A stretch of 51,644 nt of DNA from Candidatus Aenigmatarchaeota archaeon (GTDB lineage: Archaea; Aenigmatarchaeota; Aenigmatarchaeia; CG10238-14). The translations under genes were made by a program, and so were the position numbers. Of this stretch, positions 9,433-50,464 are shown in pieces. Within the stretch, counting starts at the first letter, position 1; each line of letters begins with the position of its first letter. The stretch spans positions 1-51,644 of the forward strand of contig JAHLMN010000011.1 in NCBI GenBank assembly GCA_018920345.1, written 5' to 3'. The notes under the pieces are model-generated. The model worked only from the letters and a program-made list of their open reading frames with translations, had not been told where the DNA came from and did no database searches.

Positions 9433-9553
9433 TTCTATCAGTCTTAATAATTATTATAAGAATATTATTTATAGATTAAAATTTTTGAAAATGTTTAAAG
9501 TATAAGAGTTTAATTTTTATTTGTGTCTTATAATATAATATAACGGTGTTATA

Positions 9554-11074
9554 ATGAGAGTATTGCTAATAAATTCGCCTTTTAAAGTAAAGATAAGCAA
9601 AGATAGTAGATGGCCAGAATATACAAAATCAGGTACTTTGTATTATCCTTTCTGGCTAGCTTATGCAACTGCTGTTATAATGGAAAGGGGTAAACACAAA
9701 CCATTATTAGTAGATGCTATAGCCAAAAAAATGAGTTTTGATGACAGCATTAAAAAAGCCAAAAAGTTTAACCCAGATCTCGTTGTAATTGAAACTTCTA
9801 CGCCTACTGCTTATAGTGATGTTAAATTTGCTGAATTGGTAAAGGAAGAACTAGGAAGAGATGTTTATACAGCTTTATCAGGTACTCTTGCTTCCTCAAA
9901 ACCCTTTGAACTGATAAAAATGTCTGATAGTATTGATTTTGTCATAAGGGGTGAATATGATTATACTATTGATGAATTAGCAACTGTTTTAGAGAAAGGT
10001 GATGATATAAGTAAAGTTTTGGGATTAACTTATAGAAATAAAAAAGGTATATTCAATACACCACCACGTCCATTAGTTACAAATTTGGATGATATACCTT
10101 TTGTCTCCAAAGCTTACAAAAAATTCTTGAATGTCTTTGATTATAGATATGCTTTAGCTAGATACCCTATGCTTCAAACATGGACTTCTAGAGGATGTCC
10201 TGCTAGATGCAACTTTTGTCAATATCCCCAATCCTTTACAATGCATTTGTTTAGAATGAGATCTCCGAAAAACGTTGTAGATGAAATGGAATATATAATA
10301 GAAAATTTGCCTGCAGTAAAAGAAATATTCTTTGAAGATGACACTTTTACCATAAATCAAAATAGAGTTATGGAAATTTGCAAAGAAATAAAAGAACGTG
10401 GGTTGCATAAATCTGGTGTTGTTTGGTCATGTAATGTTAGGGTACAAACAAAATATGAAACATTAAAAGCCATGAAAGATGCGGGCTGTAGAATTGTTAT
10501 AGTTGGTTATGAATCGGGAAACGACCAAGTTTTAAGCAATATAAGAAAAGGTGCTACTGTTAAAGAAGCTAGGAGATTCACTCTGGACGCAAAAAGAGCT
10601 GGTTTGCGCATTTTCGGCTGTTTTATGATAGGTTTATCTGGAGATACTAGAGATAGTATAATGGATACTTTGAAGCTAGCAAAAGACATGAATCCTGATA
10701 TGGCTTTCTTTCAACAAGCAGTACCATTCCCAGGAACAGAATTTTATGAATGGGCAAAAATGAATGGATATTTGGTGACAGAAGATTGGAGTCAATGGCT
10801 AGATAGCAACGGCAGGTTAAGATGTTTAGTAAGCTATCCTTGGTTGAAAGCAGAAGAAATAGACAAGTTAAGAGACAAATTAATGCTTGAATTTTATACA
10901 AATCCTAAACACATAGCCCAAACAATAGTTAAAAATCTTCATCCTTTAGAAGCTTCTAGAGTTGCTGTTTATGCATTTGAATATTTAAAATATCTTGTAA
11001 AAAGGAAAATATCCCCTGATGGTGTTGTTAAACAAGATTTCGAAAATTTTGTTGGAAATAATAACATTTCATAA
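9554..11074 (+). CDS. B12-binding-type radical SAM protein
   Basis: Rossmann-like N-terminal domain plus CxxxCxxC radical SAM motif SRGCPARCNFCQYP; EDDTFTINQNR; YESGNDQVLSNIRKG. Confidence 0.88.
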   Translation: MRVLLINSPFKVKISKDSRWPEYTKSGTLYYPFWLAYATAVIMERGKHKPLLVDAIAKKMSFDDSIKKAKKFNPDLVVIETSTPTAYSDVKFAELVKEELGRDVYTALSGTLASSKPFELIKMSDSIDFVIRGEYDYTIDELATVLEKGDDISKVLGLTYRNKKGIFNTPPRPLVTNLDDIPFVSKAYKKFLNVFDYRYALARYPMLQTWTSRGCPARCNFCQYPQSFTMHLFRMRSPKNVVDEMEYIIENLPAVKEIFFEDDTFTINQNRVMEICKEIKERGLHKSGVVWSCNVRVQTKYETLKAMKDAGCRIVIVGYESGNDQVLSNIRKGATVKEARRFTLDAKRAGLRIFGCFMIGLSGDTRDSIMDTLKLAKDMNPDMAFFQQAVPFPGTEFYEWAKMNGYLVTEDWSQWLDSNGRLRCLVSYPWLKAEEIDKLRDKLMLEFYTNPKHIAQTIVKNLHPLEASRVAVYAFEYLKYLVKRKISPDGVVKQDFENFVGNNNIS

Positions 11075-24118: not shown

Positions 24119-24715
24119 ATGGAAATTGATTTCGGTTATGTTTACGGGATTTTGATTGCAAAAGGTGTATATCATAGCAAAGATCTGATAACCATAGAAA
24201 TGTCTGACAAAAATTTATTAGAAATAGCAAAAAGCAAATTAAAATTACTTGGTAATGTAAGAATTTATAATAAAATTAGAAAATCAAATAAATTATACAA
24301 TACACAAGTCATTTTCTTGAAAATTAAAAATAACATTGAATTGAAACTTGGCAGGCATGAATGGGATGTTCCTTCACGTGCATTCATTTCTAAAGAATTT
24401 AGGATTGGTCTATTGAGAGCCTTGTTTGACTTTTCAGGAACAATAAGGGCTAGACTAAGAAAAAGTGGACAAAAAGAAAGAAGTATTAGGTTAAGCTCTG
24501 TAAACGAAAATATAAAAAAAATAAAAGAATTGCTAAAGATTGAAGGAATAAATTCAATGATTTATTCAAACAAAAAATCGTTTATTTTAGAAATAAATGG
24601 CAAGCATAATTTGCAATTATATTTGGAAAAAATTGGTTTTGAAAATAGCGCTAAAAAAGATTTGTTAGAAAAAATCATAAATCCAGTTTCATTTGAACAC
24701 ATTTTATCTTCATGA
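24119..24715 (+). CDS. Stand-alone LAGLIDADG-fold protein, probably catalytically dead
   Basis: Two LAGLIDADG-like helices: YVYGILIAKG and GLLRALFDFSG; SSVNENIKKIKELLKIEGI between-repeat pattern. Confidence 0.65.
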   Translation: MEIDFGYVYGILIAKGVYHSKDLITIEMSDKNLLEIAKSKLKLLGNVRIYNKIRKSNKLYNTQVIFLKIKNNIELKLGRHEWDVPSRAFISKEFRIGLLRALFDFSGTIRARLRKSGQKERSIRLSSVNENIKKIKELLKIEGINSMIYSNKKSFILEINGKHNLQLYLEKIGFENSAKKDLLEKIINPVSFEHILSS

Positions 24716-27515: not shown

Positions 27516-28466
27516 CTACAATTCTTTCACTTCTCTTGTGTGAAGATTTACTTCATACTCTTTATCAAAAACAGATATTATTGTTGTTCCTTTGTAATTT
27601 TTAGCTAGAGATGGTTCAATATCTGTTATTATAAAATCAGGTAAATTATCAAGTATAAAATCTTCTGGATTTGAAATTGCATAGTCATTTGTTGTTAAAA
27701 GTAAAAATCTTCTTTTAAGTAATTTTAATAAAGATTCAGAGTAAATTTTTATTCTCATAAAATCAAAAAATTTTTTTGGTAAAATTAGAAAGGTTATATT
27801 TCCATAACTAATATAAGTGGGGTTAGCTCTTCTAGGTGATAGAGGATTTTCTTGATTTAAATTGACCTTTAGAATTATTTCTTCATTTGTTTTTTTTATT
27901 TCTCTATTTAGTGGTATATCAGGATGTAAAATCTTTCTGGTAATAAACTTTTCTCTTTGTCTTTCACAATAAACACCAACCACATCATCTCTTTCAAAAT
28001 CTTCTAATTTTTGTTTCATTATTCCTTCAAAAAAGATTTCTATTTCTCCCGTGGGGTCTTCTAAAACAATAGAAGCATTACCTTTCTCCTTTATTAATCC
28101 TATGGTGGAAAATTCTCTAGTGTTTTCTGTTATCTTATTTATTGATATTCCACTAAAACCAACAGAAGTAAAAATGTCTTTTATTTTTTCATATTTTTTT
28201 AGATAAAAATTTACATAGTCATCTATTCTCAAAGCTTTTTTTTCCAAAACAATTTCTTTTACTACCTGAAAGTTTAATTCTTTTTTTTGATTTTTAGCTA
28301 TTATTTCATTAACTATATCTCTTGTCAAAAAAAATGGCCTTATTTTGAGTTTTTTAATTTCTGAAATAAAAAAATCTGGGTCTTTTCTTATAATAGCTAA
28401 TGCATCATTTGTTAATTGTATTCCCATGTCTAGAAAAGTTTTTATTATTTCTTGGTCATTCATCAA
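27516..28466 (-). CDS. DNA polymerase D small subunit (DP1), truncated/degenerate phosphoesterase domain
   Basis: DP1-like N-terminal helical domain, OB-fold (GLIKEKGNASIVLEDPTGEIEIFF) and DP1-like C-terminus (LLKLLKRRFLL...EDFILDNLPDFIITDIEP...NYKGTTIISVFDKE...VNLHTREVKEL); adjacent to orc1/cdc6. Confidence 0.75.
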   Translation of the reverse strand: MMNDQEIIKTFLDMGIQLTNDALAIIRKDPDFFISEIKKLKIRPFFLTRDIVNEIIAKNQKKELNFQVVKEIVLEKKALRIDDYVNFYLKKYEKIKDIFTSVGFSGISINKITENTREFSTIGLIKEKGNASIVLEDPTGEIEIFFEGIMKQKLEDFERDDVVGVYCERQREKFITRKILHPDIPLNREIKKTNEEIILKVNLNQENPLSPRRANPTYISYGNITFLILPKKFFDFMRIKIYSESLLKLLKRRFLLLTTNDYAISNPEDFILDNLPDFIITDIEPSLAKNYKGTTIISVFDKEYEVNLHTREVKEL

Positions 28467-29677
28467 ACCACAAGGCTTTCATTCAATATTGCTTTAATTT
28501 TTTGTTTTATTGGCTCTGAAAGATTAAACATTATAACTCTTGTCCTGCCATATCTACCTAAAGAAGTAACTTTGGCGTTTATTATTCCTGCCATATCTAG
28601 CTCAGAAATTAAATCAGAAATTCTTCTTTGCGTTAAAGGATACAAACCTATTTCTTTACATTTTTTCTGATAAATGTCATATACATCCCCTGTTTGTATG
28701 TCATCTCTTTTTGTTTCAGCTAACTCTAATATTGCCCATAAGACGACTTTGGTTTGTTTTGGTAAAACTTTTGTTGACTCTATTATTCTATCATAATCAA
28801 TCTTTTCTTGTGCCATGTCAACGTGTTTTTCTGTTACTTTGTTATCACCCATTCTTTCTGCTATTTCTCCTGCTACTCTTAACAAATCTAAGGCTCTTCT
28901 TGCATCACCATGCTCTTGAGCAGCCAATGCTGCACATTTTGGTATAACTTCTTCTGAAAGTGCTTCTTCAACAAAAGCTAATTGAGCTCTATGTTTCAGT
29001 ATATCGTGTAGTTGAGTGGCATTGTAAGGAATAAACAAAACTTCCTCTTCTCTTAAAGAACTCTTTACTCTTGGATCTAATATTTCTATGAAATGTAAAT
29101 CATTAGTTATTCCTATTATAGATAATTTTGCTTGTTTTAGATCCTGATTTATTCTTGTCAAGTTATAAAGAAACTCGTCGCCCATTTTTTCTACTAGTGC
29201 GTCTATCTCATCTAAAATCAATATTATTATTCTTTTTTCAGAATCCAATGCATTAAAAAAAGTTTGATAAATATAATCTGTTGGCAAGCCAGTTGTTGGT
29301 AAATTATAACCAAGCATCCTGGTTAACTCTGTCACAAGTCTATATTCTGTATCAGAAATTTTTTTCATTTTACAATTAATATAGAGTACTTTAACAGGAA
29401 AGTTTCCTTGGCTAGAAATTTTTTCAAGTTCTTCTGCTATATGTTTTGAAACAAGTGTTTTTCCTGTACCTGTCAAACCATAAATAAAAATATTTGATGG
29501 TCTTGCACCTTTCAAAGAAGGAGCTAATATCGAAGCAATTGTATTAATCTCTTTATTTCTATGATAAATTGTTTCTGGAGTAAATTCTGATGTTAAAACA
29601 TCTCTATTTTTAAATATCTGTGGTGGTTTTGTAATAAATTCTTGAAATATATTTCTTATTGTTTTTTGTGTTTCCAT
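28463..29677 (-). CDS. cdc6: Orc1/Cdc6 replication initiator
   Basis: IYGLTGTGKTLVSKHI (Walker A), IIILILDEIDAL (Walker B), ITNDL sensor 1, GDARRALDLLRVAGEIAE sensor 2, C-terminal wHTH. Confidence 0.96.
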   Translation of the reverse strand: METQKTIRNIFQEFITKPPQIFKNRDVLTSEFTPETIYHRNKEINTIASILAPSLKGARPSNIFIYGLTGTGKTLVSKHIAEELEKISSQGNFPVKVLYINCKMKKISDTEYRLVTELTRMLGYNLPTTGLPTDYIYQTFFNALDSEKRIIILILDEIDALVEKMGDEFLYNLTRINQDLKQAKLSIIGITNDLHFIEILDPRVKSSLREEEVLFIPYNATQLHDILKHRAQLAFVEEALSEEVIPKCAALAAQEHGDARRALDLLRVAGEIAERMGDNKVTEKHVDMAQEKIDYDRIIESTKVLPKQTKVVLWAILELAETKRDDIQTGDVYDIYQKKCKEIGLYPLTQRRISDLISELDMAGIINAKVTSLGRYGRTRVIMFNLSEPIKQKIKAILNESLVV

Positions 29678-29740
29678 ACAAAATTAATAAACTCCTATAG
29701 AAATAAACCTTTTTCTATTGGAAAAAATATAATAACCCAG

Positions 29741-29944
29741 ACCCCTCTATTTCAAGTGGAAATTTTTATATAAACAAAAATAAAAAATATAACAGTATTA
29801 TATTTATAATTATAAATTATTTTAATCTTTTGTTAGATTTTACTACAAAAAAACTATTAAAATAAAAAGTTTAGGTTAATTAAACTAAATTTTTGTTTTT
29901 GTTTTAAAAACAATAAACATTAATTCCAAAAGAAATAAAGGGGT
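29741..29944. other. Predicted replication origin (two inverted ORB-like boxes flanking an AT-rich tract)
   Basis: Minus-strand box TTCCACTTGAAATAGAGGGGT (29761-29741) and plus-strand box TTCCAAAAGAAATAAAGGGGT (29924-29944), 17/21 identical, inverted; intervening ~160 bp has ~17 G/C by hand count; directly upstream of orc1/cdc6. Confidence 0.75.
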
Positions 29945-50307: not shown

Positions 50308-50340
50308 TTTAATGCTAATTCTATAATTATTTTGAAATAT

Positions 50341-50436
50341 GCAGGGGTAGCCAAGCGGCCAAAGGCGCAGGACTTAAGTTGCTTGGAGAAATCCTGTCTC
50401 TTAGTGAGTTCGAGAGTTCGAATCTCTCCCCCTGCA
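50341..50436 (+). tRNA. tRNA-Leu (UAA), with probable 12-nt intron at 50379-50390
   Basis: Acceptor GCAGGGG/CCCCTGC, T-arm GAGAG-TTCGAAT-CTCTC, long variable arm, anticodon stem CAGGA/TCCTG; 19 nt in the loop region instead of 7; removing TTGCTTGGAGAA leaves loop CTTAAGA. Confidence 0.9.
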
Positions 50437-50464
50437 TTTTATTTAAACAATTTTGAGTTTTTCT

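Follow-up and report, generated by a model that had tools for sequence, protein, structure and literature searches.

A conserved palindrome between the ORBs of a probable Aenigmatarchaeota replication origin, and a candidate HTH protein that may bind it

Introduction

A locus beside the orc1/cdc6 gene of an uncultured Aenigmatarchaeota archaeon raises two questions: whether it is the replication origin (oriC) of the chromosome, and what role a palindrome within it may have. What experiments have revealed about archaeal origins derives from three cultivated groups (PMC5333045), and our literature search on the origins of Aenigmatarchaeota or Nanohaloarchaeota gave nothing relevant.

A close point of comparison is the ORB-type oriC1, represented by Pyrococcus oriC, Sulfolobus oriC1 and haloarchaeal oriC1. 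Like the locus described here, these origins have inverted ORBs with G-runs, an AT-rich tract between them, and a position upstream of orc1/cdc6 (PMC4010727, PMC3936714, PMC12141716). The Sulfolobus origin carries an element, ucm, between its ORBs that is required for origin activity. The protein that binds ucm, UBP, contacts MCM and also binds hundreds of other sites. Reports of UBP are confined to Sulfolobales and Desulfurococcales, and the authors of that work raise the question of whether proteins with an analogous role exist in divergent lineages (PMC12141716).

In this study, we analyzed a 51,644-nucleotide stretch of DNA (the window, i.e., the whole stretch at its full length) together with the genome to which it belongs (an 816-kb assembly of 815,730 bp in 27 contigs, 95.5% complete). 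We also scanned the DNA upstream of orc1 in 55 named records and 30 relatives. An earlier note on this DNA had proposed that two ORB-like boxes around an unwinding tract form oriC. Our analyses bear on that proposal, and also on a palindrome within the tract and a small helix-turn-helix (HTH) protein that may bind it.

Results

Two inverted ORBs enclose an AT-rich tract beside orc1

The proximal ORB, TTCCACTTGAAATAGAGGGGT, occupies positions 29741-29761 on the minus strand, and the distal ORB, TTCCAAAAGAAATAAAGGGGT, positions 29924-29944 on the plus strand. Both fit TTCCANNNGAAATANAGGGGT exactly. As an inverted pair, they are identical at 17 of 21 positions (81%), the same count as in the earlier note. 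Their dyad ends point inward and their G-runs outward, that of the proximal box toward orc1 and away from the AT tract; the G-run-distal sides face each other, as the note had described. A genome-wide motif scan, which the note had suggested, found TTCCANNNGAAANANAGGGG with up to two mismatches at these two boxes only, each with no mismatch, and no scatter elsewhere. The reversed pattern of TTCCANNNGAAANANAGGGG had no match in the whole 815,730-bp genome, and 100 shuffles of the window gave a mean of 0.21 box matches at up to three mismatches.

The AT-rich tract between the boxes (29762-29923), a candidate duplex unwinding element, contains 17 G/C in 162 bp, in agreement with the earlier estimate of about 17 in some 160 bp. 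Segments of 162 bp that are as G/C-poor as this one number 117 among the 51,482 in the window. The tract is approximately 75 bp longer than in two congeners, in which the distal box lies that much closer, so this long AT tract is particular to the present species.

The orc1/cdc6 initiator gene beside the boxes (28463-29677, minus strand), which the note had also recognized, is full-length. It encodes 404 amino acids with three Pfam domains: AAA, Cdc6_lid and Cdc6_C (winged helix). Its relatives place the genome in Candidatus Aenigmatarchaeota; the nearest is that of MAG SKW179, with 84% identity, and more orthologs are found in Nanohaloarchaeota. A second Orc/Cdc6 paralog (about 35% identity) is encoded on contig C11 (16615-17403, plus strand), near which no ORB match with up to two mismatches was found. 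In many relatives from the same order, the only Orc is of this more distant type.

The ORBs are conserved in two phyla

An inverted ORB pair with outward G-runs is present upstream of orthologous orc1 genes in the family, in the class and in Nanohaloarchaeota. In many family members the boxes were located by a scored search after a stricter pattern had missed them, which rules out that these members lack ORBs. The consensus of 51 proximal boxes (from origins that contain the palindrome described below) and 42 distal boxes from Aenigmatarchaeota and Nanohaloarchaeota is TTCCANNNGAAANNNNGGGGT, and its positions G9, A10 and A11 are invariant in the proximal and distal sets alike. The earlier note had considered the box consensus specific to this lineage; as it is common to two phyla, this part of the proposal does not hold.

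The locus has the features of an ORB-type origin, i.e., at least two inverted ORBs, each with a dyad and a G-run, an AT-rich tract between them and a directly adjacent orc1/cdc6 gene. Because relatives in Aenigmatarchaeota and Nanohaloarchaeota keep inverted ORBs upstream of orc1, the region very probably serves this archaeon as its chromosomal oriC. The proposal of oriC is well supported by the retention of ORBs, AT tract and orc1 adjacency in many relatives from both phyla and by boxes that are unique in the genome. By itself, the ORB part is an ordinary origin of the kind expected for an archaeon, to which it adds a new member.

A palindrome lies within the AT-rich tract

Inside the AT tract, at 29788-29802 on the minus strand, is a 15-bp palindrome, TATAATACTGTTATA (consensus TATAACNNNGTTATA). 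The origin copy in this genome, which begins with TATAAT, is one base off the consensus. We called the palindrome when 11 or 12 of the 12 specified positions of TATAACNNNGTTATA matched, and duplicate regions were removed. By this definition, it occurs in 52 of 68 distinct orc1 upstream regions compared with 27 of 3,400 shuffled ones, a contrast that is inflated by kin sequences; controls with the reversed pattern were near zero. Every family member with a readable region has the palindrome upstream of orc1. The tract, which the earlier note took for an unwinding element, is not simply a melting region, since it holds this well conserved palindrome. No published description of a central palindrome near one ORB was found in the literature searched.

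The palindrome recurs at other genes

The closed Nanohaloarchaeota chromosome M3_22 contains a single copy of the palindrome (as TATAACANTGTTATA), which lies upstream of orc1, and four further Nanohaloarchaeota genomes likewise have one copy each, at orc1. Genome G061 has exactly two TATAACANTGTTATA sites, one at the origin and one at the gene for a small HTH protein. The genome studied here has six sites, counting the TATAACNNNGTTATA form and the origin variant; a seventh match, to a looser pattern (TATAATTGGATTATA), was left out of this count. The non-origin sites adjoin genes for a SufC-like ABC ATPase, SufB, an AhpC/TSA peroxiredoxin, a radical SAM/B12 protein and the small HTH protein. 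One of them is the second copy in the window, TATAACACCGTTATA (9539-9553, minus strand), which would belong to a wider regulon. It lies in the promoter of the radical SAM/B12-binding protein gene (9554-11074, plus strand; Pfam Radical_SAM and B12-binding), its likely target.

Sites in relatives adjoin genes for class-V aminotransferases (cysteine desulfurase type), rubrerythrin, Fe/Mn SOD and peroxiredoxin, and the domains encoded beside sites in Aenigmatarchaeota include SufBD core, AhpC-TSA, Rubrerythrin, Sod_Fe and Aminotran_5. The names SufC, IscU and CysK are presumptive assignments from our own reading of the sequences. In Aenigmatarchaeota, the putative operator precedes Fe-S assembly and oxidative-stress genes, the placement that characterizes Fe-S/redox regulators; the neighbors of several sites in relatives are neither Fe-S nor redox genes. 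Some relatives (genomes G064, G065, G067 and G096) have 11-27 palindrome copies each, sometimes several within a few hundred bp.

A small HTH protein is the candidate binder

Of 56 distinct homologs of the small HTH gene, 37 have the palindrome (at least 11 of 12 positions) immediately upstream, compared with 20 of 11,200 shuffles, again with statistics inflated by kin sequences. HTH genes with an upstream palindrome occur in both phyla, Nanohaloarchaeota homologs included. A palindrome at the protein's own gene, which suggests self-regulation, makes this protein the natural candidate, and we consider it the likely binder. When HTH gene and origin palindrome were compared in 53 genomes, 41 had both, six neither, three the palindrome only and three the HTH gene only (Fisher p = 0.0003, a test that ignores kinship; absence calls are soft, as many of these genomes are incomplete MAGs). 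The present genome encodes two HTH paralogs, on contigs C4 and C14, and the operator is found only before the C4 gene. The C14 paralog, which has no operator, is the better-matching HTH, and the C4 protein is the more divergent.

The protein is XRE-like and has about 110-125 residues. In 23 Aenigmatarchaeota sequences (set A1), C5 and C93 are invariant and C96 nearly so. The Aenigmatarchaeota protein has an invariant N-terminal CE and a mostly conserved CxxC; most Nanohaloarchaeota homologs do not have these cysteines. AlphaFold predicts an all-helical core (pLDDT 85). Searches of the PDB by sequence and by fold gave no confident match, Pfam and NCBIfam gave weak HTH-family matches with no specific name, a literature search on COG2522 gave nothing relevant, and one on ThiR-type regulators yielded no useful information. 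Fe-S assembly and this HTH family are also connected by L291 (genome G074, contig C71), an open frame in which a related HTH domain is joined to an IscS-like cysteine desulfurase.

The palindrome keeps its place relative to the ORB

Measured start to start, palindrome and proximal ORB are 41 bp apart in this genome and 38-45 bp apart in 37 of 51 measurable cases, with a median of 41 bp over all 51. The distance from palindrome to orc1 start spans 97-360 bp, apart from a single outlier at 25 bp. As the ORB spacing is nearly constant and the gene distance is variable, the palindrome keeps its place relative to the ORB and not to the gene. Longer spacings to the ORB (49-51, 61 and 71 bp) resemble added helical turns, for which a helical-phase test of the non-modal spacings gave weak support (p = 0.027 for spacings up to 80 bp and 0.057 for all, the sequences being related).

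These distances bear on the main rival explanation, which accepts the locus as oriC but sees in the palindrome nothing more than an operator of orc1, through which the HTH regulator would tune the supply of initiator with no direct role at the origin. The same sequence occupies an operator position near the promoters of other genes, and every origin copy has orc1 as its neighbor. However, a pure effect on orc1 transcription is less likely for a palindrome that keeps its distance to the ORB and not to the gene. In addition, the palindrome of this genome lies approximately 110 bp upstream of the orc1 start codon and is separated from the promoter by the proximal ORB, whereas copies at HTH promoters are about 15-60 bp from the start. 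We therefore consider it rather unlikely that the palindrome acts on orc1 expression alone.

GC skew and the orc1 promoter

We read GC skew in 20-kb blocks, partly by sampling, along four large contigs or chromosomes; to cancel the bias due to gene direction, third-codon skew was taken as the mean of the two gene strands. In three Aenigmatarchaeota, the skew is weak and irregular and does not clearly switch at orc1; in M3_22, the cumulative curve after correction has its minimum near the orc1 region but not at it, some tens of kb away. At the orc1 promoter itself, between the likely TATA box and the start codon, is an inverted pair of mini-ORB-like dyads, TTCCAATAGAAA-8-TTTCTATAGGA (29693-29723, minus strand). 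It is matched in the 12 relatives of the family or order that were listed and is a candidate site of orc1 autoregulation.

The conserved dyads and the unclear skew speak for a second alternative, in which the boxes are Orc1 sites used mainly for orc1 autoregulation and the locus is not the active origin, or not the main one. Thermococcus kodakarensis is reported to be able to replicate in the absence of Cdc6 and of its presumed origin (PMC5663688). Against this explanation, inverted full ORBs, a tract among the most AT-rich of the window and orc1 together form the standard architecture of archaeal origins (PMC4010727, PMC12141716), and there is no second ORB pair anywhere in the genome; we judge it improbable. 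That boxes and palindrome are chance matches, which the extreme AT-richness of the region might suggest, is hardly credible, as the exact boxes are unique in the genome, palindrome and ORBs are kept across two phyla, reversed-pattern controls are near zero and the conservation tests contradict it.

Other features of the window

The small subunit of DNA polymerase D (DP1; 27516-28466, minus strand) has only 316 amino acids. It has no GHTH-type phosphoesterase motif, and neither do the DP1 proteins of this family and of some other Aenigmatarchaeota (L003-L005, L007, L013, L021, L023, L026, L029 and L043); the motif is present in other relatives (L022, L024, L030, L039 and L053). Because the motif is missing, PolD proofreading may be lost. 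In addition, a stand-alone LAGLIDADG-type open reading frame (24119-24715, plus strand) adjoins the polB gene. A tRNA-like gene at 50340-50437 (plus strand) was assigned an uncertain four-base anticodon (taag) by ARAGORN and may contain an intron or be a false tRNA.

Discussion

What can be read directly from the DNA comprises both boxes and how widely they are conserved, as well as the palindrome with its ORB spacing, its further sites and its place before the HTH gene. The reading that we prefer, with a probability of roughly 0.65, is that of an ORB-type oriC with a central palindrome that would be bound by the HTH protein, possibly coupling replication to Fe-S or redox state.

The steps that we infer concern protein binding, dimerization, repression, an effect on initiation and redox sensing. 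Orc1 monomers would bind the two inverted ORBs, G-runs outward, and direct loading of the helicase (MCM) onto the AT tract between them. A homodimer of the XRE-like HTH protein would bind the TATAACNNNGTTATA palindrome, about four helical turns from the proximal ORB. This protein would repress its own gene and, in Aenigmatarchaeota, also Fe-S assembly and oxidative-stress genes. Its occupancy of the origin probably assists or gates a step of initiation, as UBP does on ucm, and may couple initiation to the Fe-S or redox status of the cell. Such a coupling is plausible because the same putative operator is found at Fe-S and oxidative-stress genes. A stronger version would make the HTH protein, in both DPANN phyla, a dedicated second origin-binding factor that sits on the inter-ORB palindrome in register with Orc1 and, in Aenigmatarchaeota, acts as an Fe-S/redox sensor that licenses initiation directly. 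We offer this version tentatively, as a possibility.

What distinguishes the locus from other ORB-type oriC1 regions is the conserved central palindrome at a near-fixed distance from one ORB. A close parallel is ucm/UBP, in which a short conserved element also lies in the AT tract between inverted ORBs, has copies elsewhere in the genome and is bound by a small protein (PMC12141716), for which there is a candidate here. However, ucm is an 11-bp element and UBP forms a strand-swapped dimer via beta-hairpins (PMC12141716), whereas the present element is a 15-bp palindrome and its candidate binder is predicted to be an all-helical HTH protein. The latter was considered as a UBP homolog and rejected on account of this predicted fold and of the PDB searches. 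Since sequence, symmetry and predicted binder fold all differ, the palindrome is not of the ucm family, and the palindrome/HTH pair is analogous to, not homologous with, ucm/UBP of Sulfolobus. Another archaeal origin has an enhancing accessory element that is likewise located in cis between inverted ORBs; it is a G-rich repeat directly beside each ORB, whereas here a single AT-rich palindrome, with a candidate regulator, lies about 40 bp from one ORB.

IscR, SufR and SurR are transcription regulators that respond to Fe-S or redox state. The putative regulon described here resembles theirs in content (Suf, cysteine desulfurase, peroxiredoxin, rubrerythrin and SOD), and the Aenigmatarchaeota HTH protein has conserved cysteines. 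It differs from these regulators in its XRE-like HTH, for which HTH families in Pfam and NCBIfam gave weak matches and the PDB no confident structural one.

What is new in this origin is a conserved palindrome at a nearly constant distance from the ORB, together with a putatively autoregulated HTH protein and its candidate Fe-S/oxidative-stress regulon, a combination that is worth testing. For two DPANN phyla, these data provide a concrete site, a spacing and a candidate protein, and with them a testable link from Fe-S or redox state to initiation. Overall, they suggest that DNA replication may be linked to redox state through a single small regulator.
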